DNA of 53,581 nucleotides from an uncultured Pseudomonadota bacterium (GTDB taxonomy: Bacteria; Pseudomonadota; Alphaproteobacteria; Rs-D84), in the NCBI GenBank assembly GCA_947303585.1, contig CAMYYT010000004.1, forward strand, positions 1 through 53,581, given 5' to 3'. The position numbers were made by a program, and so were the translations under genes. Positions 6,610-26,396 of this stretch are shown here, one piece after another (the stretch's first letter is position 1; each line of letters opens with the position of its first letter). The notes below the pieces were generated by a model that ran no database searches, was not told the DNA's origin, and was given only the letters and a program-made list of their open reading frames with translations.

Positions 6610-9600
6610 TTACCTGCGATATATACGACCTTTGCCGCGCATATTTACAGGTTTTTTTCCTGGCTCAAAACGAACCCCATTTTGATGAAAGATATCTATA
6701 TCCTGTGGATGTCTTGTTATATATCTGTCTATCATTTCGTCCGTGGATAGACCAGATGGAAGCACAAAATCAAAAAGTGACATATTTATCAATGTGGCTT
6801 TGTCTAATTTTTCAAAATTATCTTTGCCAATCATATTGAAAATTCTTTTCATAAAAGAGTCCGATTCATTTTTATCCTTATCTTTTTTCTTGTTCAATTC
6901 TTTAACAATACTTTGACCATGGTTGAACTGGGCGGCAAAGCTTTGTTTTTCATGTATTTCATCAGCGTGTTTTTTATTATCCTCTTTGGCTTTTGATGCT
7001 TCTGTTTGTTTTCCTTCGACAAGATTATGTTTCACAGGAACAGCCCTATAAAAAGTATCTTCTGCTGGTATCTCAGATTTTAATTGCTCTATTTCTTCTT
7101 GTGCTTTGGCAATTTCGTATTCATGGTATTTTATTTCAGCAGCCCTTTTACCCGTTGGATTGAATTCCTGTTTTTCTGCCAGTTCTTTTTCCTTCTCTTC
7201 TAAATCATGTCTTTTATATGCATGCTGCATTGCATCCGCCAATACATCTTTGTCAGGGTCGCCATAACGATTTAAGATTTCGTTCAAATTACCCTGATAC
7301 TTATTTATTGCTCTCCTTAGTTCCGCACTTTCTCTTTTCTCATTGGATGCAGACAACACCTCTCGTAATTTAGCGAGTTTTTCGCGGTGTTTATTAATTT
7401 TTTTCGCATCTTCATAAGTTATAAACAAATGCTTTTCTTCGGGCTTTTTCATTTCAAGCAACCCACGAACCCCTCTGCCTTCGATTTGCTTTTGTTCTTT
7501 CGGTTTCTTATATTCGATTTGCTTTTGGTCTTCCGGTTCATCATACTCGATTTGCTTTTGTTTTTTCGGCTCGTTATACCCTATTTGCTTTTGTTCTTTC
7601 GGTTCATCATACTCGATTTGCTTTTGTTCTTCAGGTTCCTCATATTCGATTTGCTTTTGTTCTTTTGGTGGAACAGGTGGAGTAATTTCATCCTTTTTAT
7701 CAGCCAAGCTACCTGGTCTATCTTTCAATTTAGCTTTGTGTTCTTTGTTATAATTTCCAAATGTCGCCATTAAACCCGGTGAATCTACTTGAGTCTGTGT
7801 TGTAACATCGACATTTCCAAAATCTTCCACTATTCTTGTTGTCACATCAATCGGGGAATTTCCGTTAGCGTATGTAGAATAACCCATTTGTCCGTTACCC
7901 AAATCAACATTCAACGGTTTTAACACATGATCAAGATGCACAGGAGCACCAGTTGTGATTCCTACTTCGTTTATAGGTGAAACCATCTGATCTACTTTCA
8001 TAGCAGCCGCCATAGCATCATCAGATATTGTCGGTCCATTAAACATATTACGCAAAGCGTCTATTTCCGCTACAGAAGTGCCGTGTTCACTACCCCAATG
8101 TGGAGTCAATACTGTATGATGACCACCAGAATGAACAACACCGCCACCATCAACGTGCAACGCCATATTATCCGCCGTCATACCGCCAGCGTCTGCATTT
8201 AACATAACTGCACGATATGGGTCGATATGCGTTCCGTGGGCCGCATTATATTCATTTACCATATCAACACGTTGTTGCAAAAGATCTGGATTATCACGAT
8301 ACCACATTTTTGCGATTCTTTCAGCGTTATCTAGTGTTTCTTGTTTATAAGTTATATCCGTTTCTTCGTGTTCGCCAATTTTTCTGGTTTCTGTATGTGT
8401 TTCCGTTCTGGTATTAAGACCTGCGGAATCAGATATCGCTTTCCCTGCGAAACGCCCCATGAAACCACCAGCAACAACCGCAGCGGCATTTGCCAAAGCC
8501 CATGCTATTGATTCGGCTTTGCCCATACCTGCATTTTTAGCGTCTTGATATGTAGACAGAGCATTATTTGATGCACCCAATGTCAAAGCACCATACCCCA
8601 GTGTTGCAGCCGCGGCAGTAACGCCAGCCGCACCAAATGCCAACGCAATAGCAGCAATCGCACTGGTTCCTAATGTCATCATCATTCGTCTATCTTTAAG
8701 TAATGCTTGGATACCGGCATCTTCGCCCGCTTCACGTCTGGCTTTGCGCCATTTATGTAATTGGATTCCAGCCATAACGATAGAGCTAACAATACCTATG
8801 ACCGCCAAAGACAACGCCAAGCTTGCCCCTGAAATAGTTGCAGCAGCGGCGGCAATAACAGTTATTGTTGTAGAAACCAAAAACGCACAACCAAAACCTT
8901 TCAACATACGAACGAAAAATTCTATACGTTTTTGTCTTTTATCTTTTGGCGTTTGACCTTCTATTCTGTCATCTTTGCGTTTGTCTATTTTTTGGATAGG
9001 TTTAAATACCTTACCAAAAAAACCTATTGCTTTATTGCCAAATTTTCCAAGTTTTTGTTTGACACGTGCAGCAAAACCAGCAGTTTTGTTTACTTGGGCA
9101 TCCATAGCGGCTTCATAGCCTTGTTCTGAAATACTGCCGCCATTTGCATTTAAATTAGAAATAAAATCTTGAAAGTGTTTCGGGTCTGTGAAACGTTCTG
9201 GGTCTTCGGTACATCCCTTGGCAATTTTTTCAGCCGTATCTAGTTCAAACAACTTATGCAATGCATCTTGGTCTAGCTCTTGTTGAACCTCATCCTCGCT
9301 CATAGTTTCTACAGGATTATCTTTGATATGATCCAGACTAAAATCATGTCTTACCAAATCAAGAACATCATTTAATTCACCATTGGATAATACTGTATAA
9401 CCCGGTTTATATTCTGTCGTTAAATTTCCTTTGTCGTCTATAAACTGTGGTTTTTCTTCACCCTTTTTGTTCAAAAATTTATATCTAGATGCACTGTATA
9501 ATGTTTCTTCACTTGGCTGCCATCCAGAAGCAATATTTGTTGCAGCATCATAATTTTTTTCTATTGTTGCTGCATCGCTTTCTTTTTCATCAAGCGTAGA

Positions 9601-10184
9601 TATGCCGTGTTCATCGTCATATTTTTTGATATAATTTTCTAAAGCGACGCGATTAAGGTTTATTTGTTGACGCAAATTAGAATCTTCTTTTAAATCTGAT
9701 TCACGCGCATCAAACATTTTATTATATCCCGCGTAAACATCAGCGATATTTGTCGTGTCAACAAAATGATATCCTATATTTTCGGCAAAATCTTTTATTA
9801 AACTGTCAATGCGTTTTGTGACTTTGTCCAAGCGATTTTCCAGTTTGTCCCGCCTTTCTTGGGATAAATTTGAATCTTCTAATCTTTTTTGGTTTGTGTA
9901 TAAGCTAATGCCAATGTATATGGTGGAACACAATCCAAATAATCTTGGTCTTCGGCAAGTATTGTATCAATAAAACGTTCCGAAAATTCTAACTCTTTTT
10001 TACCTTGCAAATCTTCAATGGTTTGCAGCAATTTTATTTGCTTGGTCGCATCACCCTTGACAGCATCAAAGCTTTCTTGGCTTATGATGTTCATTTTTAC
10101 AAAAACTTGCAACGCTATTTCATCTATGATTCTTTGATTTTCATCTGATGAATTAGATCTGATACGAGCATTTATTGATGGCAT
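6610..10184 (-). CDS. Large (~1190 aa) membrane-spanning protein with internal repeats; read as two ORFs (10184..9879 and 9933..6610) joined by a putative -1 frameshift
   Basis: The two ORFs overlap at ACC AAA AAA GAT TAG. The second ORF has only a TTG start inside the first. Span is 3575 nt (3n+2), so one extra nt or a -1 slip fuses them. Central hydrophobic Ala/Gly-rich segments. Confidence 0.6.
7482..7669 (-). repeat. 33-bp in-frame tandem repeat (~5-6 units) encoding EP[KE]EQKQIEYD
   Basis: TCGATTTGCTTTTGTTCTTTCGGTTCATCATAC recurs at 33-bp spacing. Confidence 0.9.
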
Positions 10185-17958: not shown

Positions 17959-20355
17959 TTATGCGTTTTGAGCAACTGTAAAATCTATGTCTGTACCAAG
18001 CACGATTTCATTGGCACGCGCTGCAGATTTAATAAGCCCATGCAAAATTTCTGGTGTATCAGACGAAATAGTCAAAGTTTCAAGTTTCGCACCGTTACCA
18101 ATTTTACGCTCTGTCCGAAGTCCACGAACTTTTTTTAGTATTTCCAATGCAATATTCATCGTTTCAACATCCGTGTTATATTCTTCTTTTGCTTCTGGAT
18201 ATTGTGTCAGATGCAATGTTTCGCCACTTTCGAAATCACGATAAATCTTTTGCCATAATTCTTCGGTAATAAATGGGATAAACGGCGCATACAAACCAAT
18301 TATGTTGCGCAAGACTGTATACAAAGTCCATTGGGCAGATAATTTTGATTCTGGTGAATATTTTTCAGGACTCCAAAATCTGTCCTTGATGAATTCCAAA
18401 TACTGGTCGCAGAATATTTCCCAGAAGAATGTATCAATAGAAGCACGTGCATTGTAATTGTCGTATTTATCCAAATTTTTGCGTGTTTCTTCAATTGCTT
18501 TGTTCAATTCAGCAAGCACCCATCTATCTTCGATAAACCTTTCGCTTACCGGTATTTCCTTTGCAGATTTTGGATCAAAATCAGTTAAATTCATCAACAC
18601 ATATTTAGATGCATTCCACAATTTAGTTAAAAGTTTAGAACCACGTTTAACTTCGTCTTCGTTATAAGGCAGATTAGTTCCAATTGGCGCAGTAGCAATC
18701 CAATAACGCAATGCATCCACACCAAATTTTTCAACCGCTTCCATTGGGTCTGTACCATTACCTTTGCTCTTTGACATTTTCTTGCCGAATTTATCAACAA
18801 CCATGCCATGCATATATACTGTCTTGAAAGGGACATCGCCCATAACGTACAATCCCATCATCATCATACGCGCAACCCAGAAAAAGATTAAATCTGAACC
18901 TGTACACAAATAATCTGTCGGGTAATATCTTTCTAATTCAGGTGTTTTATCAGGCCAACCAAGTGTTGAAAATGGCCAAAGCCCCGATGAAAACCAAGTA
19001 TCAAGTGTATCTGCATCTTGGGTTAATTTTTTACCACCAGATTGCTTAATTGCCTCTTCTTCTGTTTCTGCAACATATACATTTCCTTCTTCGTCATACC
19101 ATGCTGGTATATGATGCCCCCACCATAACTGACGCGATATAGTCCAAGGACGAATATTATTCATCCATGCCATAAACAGATTATATCTGTGGTCTGGTAA
19201 AAATTTTGTTTTTAAATCTTCTGCTGCTTGGATTGCAGGAACCGATAATTTTTTTGCATCGACAAACCATTGTGTTGTTAACATTGGTTCAACCGGTACA
19301 CCACCACGTTCTGAATAAGGTGTTGGAATAACTTTGTCTTCCACTTTTATCATCAATCCAGCCGCTTCGATATCTTCGACAATTGCTTTGCGCGCAACAT
19401 ATCTGTCCATACCACGATACTTTTCTGGCACCACAGATTCATTATTTAATTTCGCATCTAATGTCAAAATACACAAAGGTTCCAAATTATGACGAAGACC
19501 AACTTCATAGTCATCAAAGTCGTGTGCTGGTGTAATTTTCACAGCACCTGTACCTTTTTCAGGGTCAGCGTGTTCGTCACCCACAATTGGAATTTCAATG
19601 TTTGTTAATGGGATAATCGCATGCTTTCCAATCAAATGATTTAATTTTTTGTTTTCTGGATGAACCGCAATTGCTTTGTCCCCAAATAGAGTTTCAGGAC
19701 GCGTTGTCGCAATTTCTACAAAACCACCGTCCGTAAGCGGATATTTAAAATAATAAAATTTACCATGTTCTTCGCGGGTTTCGATTTCCAAATCTGAAAC
19801 AGAAGTTTGCTGTTTAGGACACCAATTCACCAGACGTTTATCACGATAAATTAAACCTTCGTTATACATTTTTACAAACAATTGAGTCACTGCTTTTGAT
19901 AACCCTTCGTCCATAGTAAATCTTTCACGCTTCCATGTTGGCGTCACACCTAAAATATGCAATTGTGTTAAGATTTGCCCACCTTTTTCTGCTTTCCACT
20001 TCCATGCATAATCTAATTTTTCTTTTAACGAAAGCGCGTGTGGATTTATACCTTTTTTAGACAAATCTCGTTCAACCAATAATTGAGTTGCGATTGCGGC
20101 ATGGTCTGTGCCTGGCTGCCACAAAACATCAAATCCAGCCATTCTTTTATAGCGGCACACAATATCAGTCAACACATTATCCAATGCGTGCCCCATATGC
20201 AAATTACCAGTCACATTTGGCGGAGGCATCATTACACAAAATGATTTTTTATTCGAATTTACATCATTATCCCAAAAACTATTTTCATCCCAAAATTTTT
20301 GAATTTTGGTTTCTAATTCACGTGTGTCAATGTTTTTTCCTAAATCAATATTCAT
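17959..20355 (-). CDS. valS: Valyl-tRNA synthetase
   Basis: PPPNVTGNLHMGHALDN, KMSKSKGNGTDPMEAVEKFGVDALRYW. Confidence 0.95.
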   Translation of the reverse strand: MNIDLGKNIDTRELETKIQKFWDENSFWDNDVNSNKKSFCVMMPPPNVTGNLHMGHALDNVLTDIVCRYKRMAGFDVLWQPGTDHAAIATQLLVERDLSKKGINPHALSLKEKLDYAWKWKAEKGGQILTQLHILGVTPTWKRERFTMDEGLSKAVTQLFVKMYNEGLIYRDKRLVNWCPKQQTSVSDLEIETREEHGKFYYFKYPLTDGGFVEIATTRPETLFGDKAIAVHPENKKLNHLIGKHAIIPLTNIEIPIVGDEHADPEKGTGAVKITPAHDFDDYEVGLRHNLEPLCILTLDAKLNNESVVPEKYRGMDRYVARKAIVEDIEAAGLMIKVEDKVIPTPYSERGGVPVEPMLTTQWFVDAKKLSVPAIQAAEDLKTKFLPDHRYNLFMAWMNNIRPWTISRQLWWGHHIPAWYDEEGNVYVAETEEEAIKQSGGKKLTQDADTLDTWFSSGLWPFSTLGWPDKTPELERYYPTDYLCTGSDLIFFWVARMMMMGLYVMGDVPFKTVYMHGMVVDKFGKKMSKSKGNGTDPMEAVEKFGVDALRYWIATAPIGTNLPYNEDEVKRGSKLLTKLWNASKYVLMNLTDFDPKSAKEIPVSERFIEDRWVLAELNKAIEETRKNLDKYDNYNARASIDTFFWEIFCDQYLEFIKDRFWSPEKYSPESKLSAQWTLYTVLRNIIGLYAPFIPFITEELWQKIYRDFESGETLHLTQYPEAKEEYNTDVETMNIALEILKKVRGLRTERKIGNGAKLETLTISSDTPEILHGLIKSAARANEIVLGTDIDFTVAQNA

Positions 20356-20498
20356 TTTGTGCCTCGTCTGATTTGTTTATAAACAGACGAATTTTACACA
20401 ATAAAAAACACAAAATCAAGTGGTCGAACAACAAAAGATTCCTAGTGAAACAAAAACTTAAAAAGCATATTATTTTTATAAAAAACAGGGGGCAACAC

Positions 20499-20861
20499 AT
20501 GAATAAAATTCTTAAAATGCTGGTCAAAGAAGCTATTCACAACAATATGATTTCAACAGTAAAAACTAATCGCGGTGATGAATATAAAATATTCGGCAAA
20601 AACAAACGAGAAATACTGTCTGTGATAAATGGATGGGCAATCAATTATTACAGTTTATTTGTTAATGGGAAAAATATTCTTTCTGTAAAATGGGACGAAA
20701 CAAATAGCAAACCTTTGACGCGCGAACAAAAAGATATGATAGACATCATTAATGCCTGCAAAGAAAAAATAGATTTACAAGAAACTGCACAGACTATGAG
20801 CGCCCAAGAATTAGAAACTGCTAATTTTTTACAACAATCTTTGTGTTCTGTTAGTTCTTAG
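20499..20861 (+). CDS. Hypothetical protein (~120 aa)
   Basis: ATG at 20499 with AGGGGG upstream; the longer track ORF from 20088 is antisense to valS. Confidence 0.55.
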   Translation: MNKILKMLVKEAIHNNMISTVKTNRGDEYKIFGKNKREILSVINGWAINYYSLFVNGKNILSVKWDETNSKPLTREQKDMIDIINACKEKIDLQETAQTMSAQELETANFLQQSLCSVSS

Positions 20862-21580
20862 ATTGCATGAACTACACGACAAAACGAAACGCCGTATACG
20901 GCAGATGCCCCGGCTTTGCGCAAAACACGATTAAGTTCATAAAATGTTGCTCCACTGGTCATAACATCATCTACCAGCAAAATCTTTTTACCACGAATTT
21001 TGTCTTGGTTTACTACTTTGAATACACCACGAACATTTTCTTGTCTTTGCTTGCTGGTTTTATGTCCCATATCTGGTTTATATTTTCGCAAAACAGAATC
21101 TGTATCAAGAATTGCTTTGTAATATTCTGCGATTGGATATGCCAAAAGTGTTGCTTGGTTATATCCGCGCTTGAAAATACGGCGCCACGCAAGAGGCACA
21201 GGCATAACCGTATCTACTTCTAAATTCAAATCACGCAAACAATTTATCATCGCACGCGACATCAAAGTTTTATATTTTAATTGAGACGCATGTTTAAAAG
21301 GCAACATTATATTTTTAGACACTTCATCATAAACACACGCAGAACGTATAAAATCCAAATCACATTCACCAGCCGCACAATGCGGACACATTGGTTTTGC
21401 ACCCAAATCTAAATTTGCTGGAAACGGATACCCGCATTTGAAACATTTGGGATTTGATATCCAATTAAAAGTCGCCCAACAAGATGCACACAAATTACCA
21501 TGACTTTCTACACTTGCGCCACAAAGTGGGCAAATCGGGGGATAAACAAAATCGATAAAAGATTTAATAAATTTTACCAC
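20858..21580 (-). CDS. comF: ComF-family phosphoribosyltransferase-like protein
   Basis: CPLCGASV...LCASCW, CFKCGYPF, CPHC, PRTase loop ILLVDDVMTSGATF. Confidence 0.9.
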   Translation of the reverse strand: MVKFIKSFIDFVYPPICPLCGASVESHGNLCASCWATFNWISNPKCFKCGYPFPANLDLGAKPMCPHCAAGECDLDFIRSACVYDEVSKNIMLPFKHASQLKYKTLMSRAMINCLRDLNLEVDTVMPVPLAWRRIFKRGYNQATLLAYPIAEYYKAILDTDSVLRKYKPDMGHKTSKQRQENVRGVFKVVNQDKIRGKKILLVDDVMTSGATFYELNRVLRKAGASAVYGVSFCRVVHAI

Positions 21581-22878
21581 GACATACTTTTGTATGTCTT
21601 CTTGGACATACTGTCACCAAACATATTGCGTTTTTGTTGTGTCAAAGATTCAAATACCTCATTAGAAATCACACGCAACACAAAAACATCATCACTGCGT
21701 TGGGATAACACAGGAACTATACGCTGTTCAGCAACACCTGTATCCCGTAAAACTTGTTCAACAATAGCCAATCTGCGCGCAGCCAATTTACGTGCTTCTT
21801 TGTCATGTGTCACAGATTCTGGTATAGCAATTTGAATCGCACGCGTCGGTTTATTTACAACTATGGATGCAGTTTGACTTAACAAGTCAAAATTATCACG
21901 CGACAAAGCCGCATCGCCATTTAAAAACGATATTTTTATTTCCAAAGGACGAATATCGCCATCCATTTCAGATAAATCGCGTTGAGCAGTAAAACCTTCA
22001 ATACTCGAACGCATATCACTTGCCACATCGTATCTATCTTCTGTTGGGTAAGTAGATAAATGTTTATTTTCTGATAAATATGTCTTTTTGAAAGCCTTCT
22101 TTAATTCATTAGGAGACATATCAGACATTTTTTTCACAGATGTTAATTTTGGTTCTGCAACAGAATTATTCGTTTCGCGCAAAGCGATTTCTTTTGGTGA
22201 TGCAACAATTTCGCGCCTTAATGAACCAGCACGATTTTCATCTGTTTTATTAACCGCAGGTTTTACATCTGTTTCGCCACTTATCGGTGTTTGAACAACC
22301 ATTGGACGCACATTAGCAATTTTTTCTTGGGTTTGCAATTGTAATGCGGTTAATCTTGAAATATCTTCGCGCAATTGTTTTAATTCTTGCATTGCATCAT
22401 CACGCGAAATACGTGTATCTTCTGTGGCTTTCACAGGTTGCGTTTTCGCGACACGTTGCACAGGCTTAACCTGTTTCACAGATTTTGCAACAGGTTTTAC
22501 GTCCAATGTTTCTTCGGGTAATATAGCATCAGAATTTATCAAAGCAATTTCATCCAAACGCGGCATACGCAAAGGTGCATCACTTTGCGCCCATAAATCA
22601 GAACGCGGTTTTTGCGGTCTTAACACATCTGCGCTTGCAACAACATTATTAGCGGCAACTGTTTTTTGCGCACTGCGCGAAACAACTTTTTTTTGAATCT
22701 TCTCCGGAACAGAGGCAACATTAACCGCAGATACTGCGACAGACGGCTTGACTTCTTCGCCAAACGCAGCGCGTGCAGAAACGATGCCATTTGATACATC
22801 TACAACCGGCAAATATGCACAATATCCGGCATTTACGCACGCAAAAGAAAACAATATATATAACGGAAAACGTTGCAT
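21574..22878 (-). CDS. Secreted protein with coiled coil and OmpA-like C-terminal region
   Basis: MQRFPLYILFSFACVNAGYC signal peptide; C-term FLNGDAALSRDNFDLLSQTASIV...ARKLAARRLAIVEQVLRDTGV. Confidence 0.65.
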   Translation of the reverse strand: MQRFPLYILFSFACVNAGYCAYLPVVDVSNGIVSARAAFGEEVKPSVAVSAVNVASVPEKIQKKVVSRSAQKTVAANNVVASADVLRPQKPRSDLWAQSDAPLRMPRLDEIALINSDAILPEETLDVKPVAKSVKQVKPVQRVAKTQPVKATEDTRISRDDAMQELKQLREDISRLTALQLQTQEKIANVRPMVVQTPISGETDVKPAVNKTDENRAGSLRREIVASPKEIALRETNNSVAEPKLTSVKKMSDMSPNELKKAFKKTYLSENKHLSTYPTEDRYDVASDMRSSIEGFTAQRDLSEMDGDIRPLEIKISFLNGDAALSRDNFDLLSQTASIVVNKPTRAIQIAIPESVTHDKEARKLAARRLAIVEQVLRDTGVAEQRIVPVLSQRSDDVFVLRVISNEVFESLTQQKRNMFGDSMSKKTYKSMSW

Positions 22879-22998
22879 GTTCCTTTCCTTCCTTAATTCA
22901 ATCATAGAACAAATTCAAAAAGTCAATCAAGCAAAAAATGAATATAAAAATTATATTTTTTAATTTTTGTTTATCAAGGTGGAAACTTTTTATTGATT

Positions 22999-23135
22999 AT
23001 TTTTTACCCCCTCCCCTGGCACTTTGTGCCACCCCCTCCAACGGGGGAATTTTTAATGTTCTCCCCTTGGGGGGAGTACGGTCGAAGACCGGGAGGGAGG
23101 TTACAAAAAAACCGTCCCCACACAGGGACGGCTTC
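22999..23135. repeat. GC-rich intergenic hairpin element
   Basis: CCCCCTCCCCTGGCACTTTGTGCCACCCCCTCCAACGGGGG...GGGGGGAGTACGGTCGAAGACCGGGAGGGAGG; a shorter related stretch lies at 14814-14850. Confidence 0.5.
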
Positions 23136-23155
23136 TTTCTTGGGGAAAGAAACTT

Positions 23156-24078
23156 TTATTCGATGACACTTAATAATATATTTCTTTTTGTCGCATTGTA
23201 TGCCGCCCACGTATACCCACATTTTTCCGAACACTCGTTAGAACACATGTTGTAAAGATTGTCGCCATCCATTATCCCTTCATCAGAGACAAATACCCAT
23301 ACCGATGAATTCGCGTTACACATTTGGCCCCCATTTGGTTTATAACCTGTTACGCGACACCAACAATATCTTCTTTCGCCACTTGCGTTTGTTAATGTAG
23401 TTTCATCCGAGGTCCAATCAGAAACATTCCCACCATACTGTCCATTATGATTATTTCCATTTCGGGCGCTACATATCGTTTCACCAAACAATTCTGTATA
23501 ATCATTGTAATCATCATAAGCACTAAATACAGCTATCCATTGCCCAGGTTCTAAAGCTGCCATTTTTTCATTTGCAAGATTACCCAAGCCCCGGTATGCA
23601 TTATTCACATTCCTAGTTGAACCACCTCCGCTAGATATGATGGCAGCATGGTTCGAGTAGTTACTTACATCAAAACTAGCCATACAACTTCTCACCTTCC
23701 ATCCCCCGAATGTATACCCTGGTCTGGCTGCGGGGGTTGGGGGTGTAAGTGCATCATCATATGTACATGTTGCGGGAATATTATTTCCTGTTAATTGTGT
23801 TCCATTACTATACCATGTTGTATTTATTGTGTTGGCGCTGAAGTCTGGTTCAAGCGACGCGCTGCCATTCGCAATATTTTGCGCACCCAAAACGGTTGTT
23901 GTACATCCCGGGTCGGTTGTTGGTATATTTTCGGCTGATGCAAAATTTGGGAATATTAAAAAGGAAAATGCAAAACAAATCGTTCCGATTTGTTTTAGGC
24001 TTTTAACGAAACTATCTGTGTGTGTGTGTGTGTGTAGAAAACTGCGGCTTTACGCGTGTTGACAAATTTTTTGTTCAT
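23156..24078 (-). CDS. Secreted InlB-repeat-like Cys-containing protein, out of frame in this sequence through a (TG)9T tract (putative phase-variable gene)
   Basis: ATG at 24078 with GGAAGG upstream gives MNKKFVNTRKAAVFYTHTHT then stops. The other frame encodes DSFVKSLKQIGTICFAFSFLIFPNFASA|ENIPTTDPGC...TTWYSNGTQLTGNNIPATCTYDDALTPPTPAARPGYTFGGWKV with no start codon upstream. Span 923 nt = 3n+2. Confidence 0.8.
24017..24035 (+). repeat. (TG)9T dinucleotide microsatellite
   Basis: TGTGTGTGTGTGTGTGTGT read directly. Confidence 0.98.
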
Positions 24079-24186
24079 TTTCCTTCCCCCCTTGTTGGTT
24101 CGTTTTTTGTTTTCTTTATGTTCCTATGTTATCAAATTTCAAAAATAAATAAAAGTGAAAAATCATATAAAAAAACACAGGCTTTT

Positions 24187-25236
24187 TTAAGCCTGTGTTA
24201 TTGTGTCTGCGATTTTTTCAACAGCCAAATTTTTTACATACGATTTTTTCGCCATTTTATCAAGGCGCGCCGGATTATCGAACAATTCATCCAAAGTACT
24301 TGATAACCATTTGGCAGAAAACTTATCTTGTGCAATTGCAAAACCACCACCCAATTTTTCAAAAGATGCCGCGTTAGCCGCTTGGTCTGGGTTGATATTT
24401 AATGGCACCAATATCGCAGGACGACCAATTGTTTCCAATTCTATGACTGTGCTAGCCCCGGAACGCCCGATAATTAAATCTGCATCTATAATCGAAGATG
24501 CCATATCGCGAATAAAAGACAAAACATTTGCATGAATTTTATGTTCTGCATAAAATCTTTGCAGTTTTTCTACATTTTCAGGGCGCGTTTGATGCGTTAC
24601 AAATATTTTTTTATTCTTCATTTCTGATACAGCAATTGGAACTATGTCATCCAAAATTTGTGCGCCAAGTGAACCACCTGTGACCAAGATTTTATTTTCA
24701 TGTTTTAATGGCGCGTTGGAATTGTTTATAAAATCGCTGCGCACTGGTAAGCCTGTATAAACAACTTTGATTTTCGTTTGTTTGGGTAAGCCATCTACCG
24801 TTTCAAAGCTTGTCATCAAAGTTTTTACCCAGCGCAATGCGAATTTATTAGCACGTCCTATTGCTGCATTTTGTTCATGCAGATATGTTGGTATTTTCCA
24901 AACATGTGCAGCAAACACAGCCGGCACAGACGCATATCCACCAAACGCAACAACGCGGTCTGGCCGATTAAATAAAAACCTTAATATCAAAGCAACTGCA
25001 GAAATACCTATTTTTGACAAAGCAACCATTTGTTTTACTTTTGATTTAGCCCCCACACCCGAAGCCCAAACAAATGCAACGCGCGCTGTTTTTGGTTTAC
25101 CATCTTGAACCATTTTCATAACACGACCATCTGTGGAAATCGTGATTTTATGACCACGGCGTGCCAATTCGTTTGCCACGCTTAATGCTGGAAAAACATG
25201 TCCACCTGTGCCACCTGTTGCAATCCATATTTTCAT
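24187..25236 (-). CDS. murG: UDP-GlcNAc:lipid II GlcNAc-transferase
   Basis: MKIWIATGGTGGHVFPALSVANEL, VTGGSLGAQ, IGRSGASTVIELETIGRPAILVPLN. Confidence 0.95.
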   Translation of the reverse strand: MKIWIATGGTGGHVFPALSVANELARRGHKITISTDGRVMKMVQDGKPKTARVAFVWASGVGAKSKVKQMVALSKIGISAVALILRFLFNRPDRVVAFGGYASVPAVFAAHVWKIPTYLHEQNAAIGRANKFALRWVKTLMTSFETVDGLPKQTKIKVVYTGLPVRSDFINNSNAPLKHENKILVTGGSLGAQILDDIVPIAVSEMKNKKIFVTHQTRPENVEKLQRFYAEHKIHANVLSFIRDMASSIIDADLIIGRSGASTVIELETIGRPAILVPLNINPDQAANAASFEKLGGGFAIAQDKFSAKWLSSTLDELFDNPARLDKMAKKSYVKNLAVEKIADTITQA

Positions 25237-25250
25237 TTTTTACCCCCGTA

Positions 25251-26396
25251 TCATTTATTCCATGTGTCTTCGCGTATCAATGCCATTACTATACCAAACA
25301 GCACACAGAAAGTCACAAACGACACCCCACCATAAGATATAAATGGTAATGTCATCCCTTTGCTTATCACCAAATGCAACGCTGTCATTAAATTAAAGCA
25401 AATTTGTCCGCCGAACAACGCTGCCACCCCAACTGTTGCATAGATAACAAAATTATCACGCGCATGTATCGCATGGTTTATCAATTTATTTAACACAAAC
25501 AACAATAATAAAACCAATGCTATACAACCAATTGCACCCCAATCTTCAGCAATAGCCGCATACACAAAATCGTTTGTTGATTCTGGCAATACATCTTTGA
25601 CATATGCATCAGACCCACTTCCAAAAAGCCCACCATGCTTGATTGAATTTATTGAATACCAAGCCTGAGACCATCTGTCTACATCAAATATATGTTGAAA
25701 ACGACCACGCACATGTTCTTTGGTCATAATAACTACTGTTGCTAAAACACCCATTACACCAACGACACCTGGAATAAACTTCCATGGGAATCCCGCGACA
25801 AACAGCATAATAAACAAAACACAAATATACAAAAACAAATTTCCAATATCAGGATGTTTGAAAAATGTCGCGGCGCATATTCCAAAAACAACCAGATATG
25901 GCCACCAACTTAGCCATCTGGCACGCCATGCCTCTTTGTTAAGAAATATATCACTTCCATAAACATTGTGCATTTTGTTCAAAAACCATGCAGTTAAAAC
26001 CACAAAAGCAGGCTTTAATACATCGGCTGGCATAAAGCCAAATCCACCGATGTGCGCCCAACGAGCACTTCCTTTGACAGCCACCGGATGAACCAATGTT
26101 ATAAGCAAACCGATTATTCCCAAAACCAAACATACGATAGATAATCTTATAACACCTTGTTTACTTAACATGCTTGAACCAAATAAACATACCAGCCCTA
26201 AAAGATATGCAGGGATTGCTTTTTTGATAAAAAAGAACCATGGCTGTCCCATTTTTGCTGCTTCCGCAGAACCAGCTGTAATCATTGTTATTGCACCAAT
26301 TACCACCAACAACAAAATCAAGCCAAGCAAACCACGGTCTATTTCAAAATACCAACTTGTTAATTTACTTTCCTCACCACGCGTAATTCTTAACAT
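25251..26396 (-). CDS. ftsW: SEDS-family peptidoglycan glycosyltransferase FtsW
   Basis: FxxxKKAIPAYLLGL, KHPDIGNL, GSGSDAYVKDVLPESTNDFVYAAIAEDWG, SYGG. Confidence 0.93.
   Translation of the reverse strand: MLRITRGEESKLTSWYFEIDRGLLGLILLLVVIGAITMITAGSAEAAKMGQPWFFFIKKAIPAYLLGLVCLFGSSMLSKQGVIRLSIVCLVLGIIGLLITLVHPVAVKGSARWAHIGGFGFMPADVLKPAFVVLTAWFLNKMHNVYGSDIFLNKEAWRARWLSWWPYLVVFGICAATFFKHPDIGNLFLYICVLFIMLFVAGFPWKFIPGVVGVMGVLATVVIMTKEHVRGRFQHIFDVDRWSQAWYSINSIKHGGLFGSGSDAYVKDVLPESTNDFVYAAIAEDWGAIGCIALVLLLLFVLNKLINHAIHARDNFVIYATVGVAALFGGQICFNLMTALHLVISKGMTLPFISYGGVSFVTFCVLFGIVMALIREDTWNK

Follow-up and report, generated by a model that had tools for sequence, protein, structure and literature searches.

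The locus lies on the minus strand of a window of 53,581 nucleotides (the whole stretch of DNA that was analysed), which belongs to a genome designated G000 (852 kb, 74% complete). Next to murG is a gene for a putative secreted protein whose start codon is separated from its signal peptide by ACACACACACACACACACA, a pure dinucleotide repeat with a unit length that is not divisible by three (Table 1). This tract is the sole dinucleotide run of at least 10 nt in the 53.6-kb window. A first-order Markov model built on the window and scaled to the 852-kb genome gives an expectation per genome of 1.2e-5 tracts of 19 nt and 2.6e-3 tracts of 15 nt. The leader begins with MNKKF, an N-terminus common to six copies within G000, and the ribosome-binding site 5' of its ATG is rated strong. 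The register set by this ATG reads MNKKFVNTRKAAVFYTHTHTQIVSLKA and ends at the TAA at 23997-23995, whereas the next register reads DSFVKSLKQIGTICFAFSFLIFPNFASA|ENIP and continues to the TAA at 23158-23156. Upstream, the latter register is first closed by the TAA at 24052-24050, and between this stop and the tract it contains none of the start codons ATG, GTG and TTG. The sequence-only reading from which we started had placed the ATG at 24078, the (AC)9A tract at 24017-24035 and the final stop 923 nt from the ATG; these coordinates and the arithmetic are correct. Its statements that the signal peptide lacks a start codon of its own and that the present copy is OFF also hold.

Table 1 Features of the focal locus, in coordinates of the window
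Feature	Position	Strand	Basis
Terminator stem 3' of the focal gene, followed by TTTTTTT	23112..23131	-	Terminator scan and sequence
Mature secreted protein (258 aa) with stop codon	23156..23932	-	Aligned with attenuator-controlled proteins of sister species
Listeria-Bacteroides-type repeat, sub-threshold	23696..23815	-	Resemblance only
Signal peptide DSFVKSLKQIGTICFAFSFLIFPNFASA, out of frame with the ATG	23933..24016	-	Hydrophobicity only
Putative hairpin AAAACAAATCG-gaa-CGATTTGTTTT after the tract	23971..23997	-	Folding; arms identical in other G000 copies
TAA closing the present (OFF) register	23995..23997	-	Sequence
TAG closing one OFF register right after the tract	24012..24014	-	Sequence
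Slippage tract (AC)9A, ACACACACACACACACACA, 19 nt	24017..24035	-	Sequence
Conserved DNA core GTAAAGCCGCAGTTTTCT preceding the tract	24036..24053	-	Family-wide consensus
Leader start codon ATG	24076..24078	-	Sequence
Purine-rich ribosome-binding site GGGGGGAAGGA	24081..24091	-	Sequence
Extended -10-like promoter element TG-A-TAACAT	24126..24134	-	By eye; weak
Terminator between murG and the focal gene	24174..24199	-	Terminator scan
murG, upstream neighbour	24187..25236	-	

The -10-like element is absent from the list produced by the consensus scan; copies in sister species carry TG-N-TATAAT at the same position. Because a terminator separates murG from the focal gene, the latter is probably transcribed alone. 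A strong intrinsic terminator is absent between the focal tract and the gene, where the only structure is a weak coding-region hairpin (-10.9 kcal/mol, z -1.9).

The mature protein is Cys-rich, in agreement with the sequence-only reading. The InlB-type repeat proposed in the same reading stands as a resemblance to the Listeria-Bacteroides repeat PF09479 (22.8-23.2 bits, E=1e-4), but the score of 22.8 bits does not reach the Pfam gathering cut-off of 27 bits. The secreted proteins associated with the module described below gave no Pfam or NCBIfam match above cut-off, and the predicted structure of the focal mature protein is poor (pLDDT 52.7), with no credible fold match. The C-terminal region of the focal protein (YCWC...WVF...C...C) aligns with proteins that are placed behind attenuators in sister species. 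Thus, related cargo is found under one module in two ways. A second cargo family, found behind the module in several species (L101, L103, L105, L288 and the copy on contig C3 of G000), consists of small, coiled-coil-like secreted proteins that contain a membrane-like stretch rich in glycine.

A pattern search of G000 for AC tracts of at least 15 nt revealed seven such tracts, far more than chance would give, and all seven lie inside one 5' module. The modules on contigs C4 (the window), C5, C7, C8 and C18, with tracts of 19, 31, 23, 25 and 25 nt, respectively, open into the same signal peptide and mature N-terminus. The module on C15 leads into an unrelated secreted protein and is continuous from the conserved MNKKF start through the tract, that is, in the ON state. 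On C3, a hairpin and a perfect intrinsic terminator come after the module, and the secreted-protein gene beyond them is separate. Further analysis revealed an eighth copy (L288, at C7:17570) in which the tract is mutated by point changes (ACATACACACATG) and the 330-aa ORF is intact; this copy looks like a locked-ON relic. G000 also encodes paralogues without the module, which have ordinary signal peptides. One of these, at C8:33577, reads MSSFLFTTIAAVVGVVMLAPSYA|TNIPTTNPGC, and its mature N-terminus equals that of the module copies. The sequence-only reading had held that homologues lacking the repeat but with their signal peptide intact would point to an assembly error or a fixed pseudogene. 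In a limited sense, such tract-less paralogues do exist, but they coexist with module copies in the same genome and so mark the part that the module replaces, without indicating that the module is dead.

The module extends well beyond the focal genome. We searched 183 genomes of the family with the pattern SCGYRG-NNNN-CT-ACACACAC. The core CCGCAG-NNNN-CT followed by (AC)n occurs at approximately 118 places in 34 of the 183 genomes, these 34 representing 8 genera, compared with 2 matches in the control; no (AC)n copy was found among 18 sampled genomes from other families of the order. The same core followed by AGAGAGAG, an (AG)n repeat, was matched at 24 places, which are spread over 16 genomes, and never in the control. 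The AC or AG form is present in 47 of the 183 genomes, about a quarter of the sampled species, with up to 14 module copies per genome. Among the places listed, the long AC tracts of members of the genus that lie away from contig ends carry the core. A strict contig-wide pattern that included the downstream bases of the focal species gave no match, whereas a looser contig-wide pattern led to two carriers in public records, RUG14070 (CADBLE01) and SRR873606_bin.79 (CAMORN01). Both are uncultured, and the latter is recorded as Alphaproteobacteria. The (AG)n copies (L253-L276) often have a short hairpin right after the tract, for example TAACCC-ttgc-GGGTTA. They are found in G024, G026, G027, G031, G052, G081, G088, G094, G133, G140, G161, G162, G167, G168, G171 and G172; five places in G171 and G172, which have a divergent core and no signal peptide, may have arisen by chance.

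What is conserved in the core is DNA or RNA rather than peptide. Bases at would-be third codon positions are kept as strictly as the others (0.94-1.00), the core is read in all three frames as judged by the place of the start codon (63, 47 and 9 copies), and it is kept before both AC and AG repeats. A search of five leader loci against Rfam gave no family at the gathering score. These findings raise the question of why a DNA core of ~16 bp is constant before two different dinucleotide repeats. Loss of mismatch repair was considered as a cause of the long tracts and ruled out, since MutS is present in 175 of the 183 genomes.

Comparison of the copies revealed two architectures. In the first, the tract is fused to a signal peptide and secreted protein, as in the focal copy. 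In the second, a short leader ORF ends in or beside an intrinsic terminator, which is followed by an intact secreted-protein gene. Automatic classification of 122 copies yielded 56 signal-peptide-like fused ORFs, 24 attenuators, 27 copies cut by contig ends and 15 unclassified copies. A stricter test was applied to the 90 copies whose downstream sequence is long enough; 53 of them qualify as signal-peptide fusions, compared with 6% of random positions in the window. A stop codon occupies the position of the post-tract TAG in 87 of 108 copies.

The attenuator architecture, in which a repeat-bearing leader ORF lies 5' of an intrinsic terminator and an intact gene, is found on C3 of G000 and in the sister species G091 and G128, where all copies that can be read far enough are attenuators. 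Up to 12 attenuator copies occur per genome, and the two sister genomes carry 12 and 6 tracts. The leader in G091 and G128 has the form ATG/GTG...KAAVFY(TH)n and is followed by a first hairpin, TTGTGCGAAT-GAA-ATTCGCACAA or a covarying version of it, and then by the terminator AACAGACAAATAACGT-TGATG-ACGTTATTTGTCTGTTTTTTT. A ribosome-binding site lies 3' of the terminator and, where the sequence extends far enough, is followed by a secreted-protein gene with its own start codon. The hairpin after the focal tract is probably a remnant of the first hairpin of the attenuator. The stems of hairpin and terminator covary: 98.1% of cells are paired, compared with 37-54% when the alignment is slid, and both-sided changes occur in 6 pairs versus 2.1 when shuffled (0 of 500). 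The predicted fold of the terminator has an energy of -22.7 kcal/mol (z -7.4). In every completely read leader except L056, exactly one register ends at a TAA in the 5' arm of the terminator; of the remaining registers, one stops at +2 and one at +15 or +19. Insertions and deletions between tract and terminator shift which register reaches the terminator, but one is always retained. In L056, a partial duplication of the hairpin region adds an earlier stop, and the corresponding register ends before the terminator. L068 likewise has part of the hairpin region duplicated just after the tract, here by 33 nt and in frame, which leaves the long register open to the terminator. Attenuation by His/Thr supply, which the (Thr-His)n leader brings to mind, was ruled out because (AG)n codes for Glu and Arg and the length of the repeat varies widely.

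Tract length differs both among paralogues of G000 (19-31 nt) and at orthologous sites, the latter comparison being between species and not strains. The sequence-only reading had proposed counting repeat units in related genomes, and the length differs at all five orthologous sites of the sister species G091 and G128; flanks are 93-97% identical, whereas the tracts measure 31/21, 21/31, 27/35, 27/23 and 31/55 nt. In another orthologous comparison, one position is occupied by (AC)n in two species but by (AG)n in a third, G140. Two copies within G142 that are 98.7% identical have tracts of 23 and 37 nt. Tracts range overall from 9 to 55 nt; since all genomes are assemblies and 27 of the 122 copies lie at contig ends, long tract lengths may be imprecise. 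When each copy is assigned its best start codon, the expressing register is found in 26 of 78, compared with one third expected under free slippage. Little slippage would be expected in tracts no longer than 15 nt, and four of five fusions with such tracts are in register, versus 14 of 50 with longer ones (p=0.035). All of these register counts are approximate, since start codons were assigned by a simple rule and some copies offer possible starts in two registers.

The window gene at 21574-22905 has an orthologue that comes directly after murG in G091, G128, G003, G110 and G055. Between these two genes, G000 and G008 have a module and a secreted-protein gene, with cargo that differs by species, and in G024 a module likewise lies 3' of murG. 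The focal gene is therefore accessory cargo at a conserved position.

The organization and recurrence of these elements suggest that the focal gene is very probably one copy of a family-wide module for slipped-strand phase variation. Phase variation had been put forward in the sequence-only reading, and it gains support from the presence of the module in 34 genomes, from the differences in length among paralogues and orthologues and from the existence of in-frame copies. We propose that slipped-strand mispairing at replication would add or remove AC units. Ribosomes that start at the upstream ATG would, in one register out of three, read through the tract and go on to make the signal peptide and secreted protein (ON); in the remaining two, they would stop within ~20 nt of the tract (OFF), as in the focal copy. 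In the sister species, where the module precedes a transcription terminator instead of a signal peptide, only one register would bring the leader-translating ribosome to the terminator. A ribosome at this position would block folding of the terminator and allow the secreted-protein gene to be transcribed. Every copy would switch independently, and a population would therefore show varied subsets of surface or secreted proteins, a diversity from which the bacteria may benefit. Counted against phase variation are the 15 of 122 copies that fit neither architecture, the tract-less paralogues with ordinary signal peptides and the presence of MutS, which would be expected to damp dinucleotide slippage.

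It is possible, but rather unlikely, that the conserved core is itself a functional or mobile element. As a site for a cellular factor, or as a unit of gene conversion or insertion, it would seed and maintain (AC)n or (AG)n tracts at the 5' ends of secreted-protein genes. These genes would then owe their phase variation to a dedicated cassette and would not have acquired it one by one. We consider it improbable that the module is chiefly a repeat element, mobile or spread by gene conversion, whose landing sites are gene 5' ends, with phase variation as a side effect and no regulatory role. Conservation of the core as DNA, in different frames and with two repeats, would fit such a repeat, as would the position of the focal gene between murG and a gene that adjoins murG in five relatives. 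However, the copies are systematically oriented and positioned relative to signal peptides or terminators, and the attenuators retain a terminator-ending register despite indels that change which register it is. Moreover, mobility and regulation are not mutually exclusive.

It is more doubtful still that the focal gene is a fixed pseudogene or an assembly artefact, with a broken or mis-assembled frame and no protein made. Most module copies in G000, the focal one included, are out of frame, intact tract-less paralogues exist and such tracts form the ends of many contigs in related assemblies. Against this explanation, the focal copy has 287 open codons after the tract and its paralogues likewise stay open over long distances, roughly a third of all copies in the family are in register, and a tract of 19 nt is well inside the length of a short read. 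The sequence-only reading had named an assembly error or fixed pseudogene as its alternative; this is disfavoured by the five copies in G000 that share one signal peptide behind tracts of 19-31 nt and by the in-frame, intact copies on C15 and at C7:17570 in the same genome. Programmed ribosomal frameshifting at the tract, which would give a fixed protein level at any tract length, is scarcely credible: a hairpin that might aid it follows the tract in the focal copy and many others, but frameshift sites are normally short and constant in length, whereas the length of these tracts ranges from 9 to 55 nt and is not the same at orthologous sites. Short tracts are mostly held in the zero frame, and classical slippery sites are not known to include (AC)n or (AG)n.

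Repeat-driven phase variation has been described chiefly in cultured pathogens, one gene at a time. The present module occurs across an uncultured family with ~1-Mb genomes and appears to be used in two mechanistically different ways. Its fusion form resembles oipA of Helicobacter pylori, in which CT repeats in the signal-peptide region set ON or OFF by their register (PMC10564699); the two share a dinucleotide tract within the part of a surface-protein gene that encodes the signal peptide, as well as control by register, which is predicted for the module. However, oipA is one gene family in one pathogen species, whereas the module combines AC or AG repeats with a conserved DNA core of non-coding type, is present many times per genome and precedes many cargo proteins that are unrelated to one another. 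The opa genes of Neisseria form a multigene surface-protein family with CTCTT coding repeats in the leader-peptide region (PMC3960869). They share with the module multiple copies of surface genes, repeats in the leader-peptide coding region and, as predicted for the module, switching of each copy alone, but opa has a pentamer and one protein family, whereas the module has dinucleotides, several families and a second, transcriptional form. The attenuator form resembles pil1 of Streptococcus gallolyticus. GCAGA repeats lie in the leader peptides of pil1 and pil3, and in pil1 their register decides whether the ribosome opens a premature intrinsic terminator (PMC3894217); in both systems, the repeat lies in a leader ORF and the ON-state stop is within or next to the stem. 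The pil1 and pil3 systems are Gram-positive, comprise two pilus operons and use a pentamer, whereas the module uses AC or AG, has up to 12 attenuators per genome and an extra covarying hairpin before the terminator, and exists in a fusion form as well. The best reading of these comparisons is that the fusion form would work like opa and oipA, and the attenuator form like S. gallolyticus pil1. A literature search, with most subscription journals outside its scope, yielded no further example of a repeat-register attenuator and no account of phase variation in these bacteria. What appears to be new is a single conserved module with two uses and two repeat types that is spread through a family. 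The module provides a ready sequence signature with which to find phase-variable genes in metagenomes, and it suggests that small-genome bacteria without a cultured member can diversify their surface stochastically.

Two further repeats were noticed in G000. Contig C10 (~19828-26253) contains a 2309-aa ORF with several diverged copies of the C-terminal domain of the focal protein. In the window, positions 7481-7669 hold a 33-bp tandem repeat (5.7 copies, in-frame period) within a 1107-aa ORF at 6610-9933.
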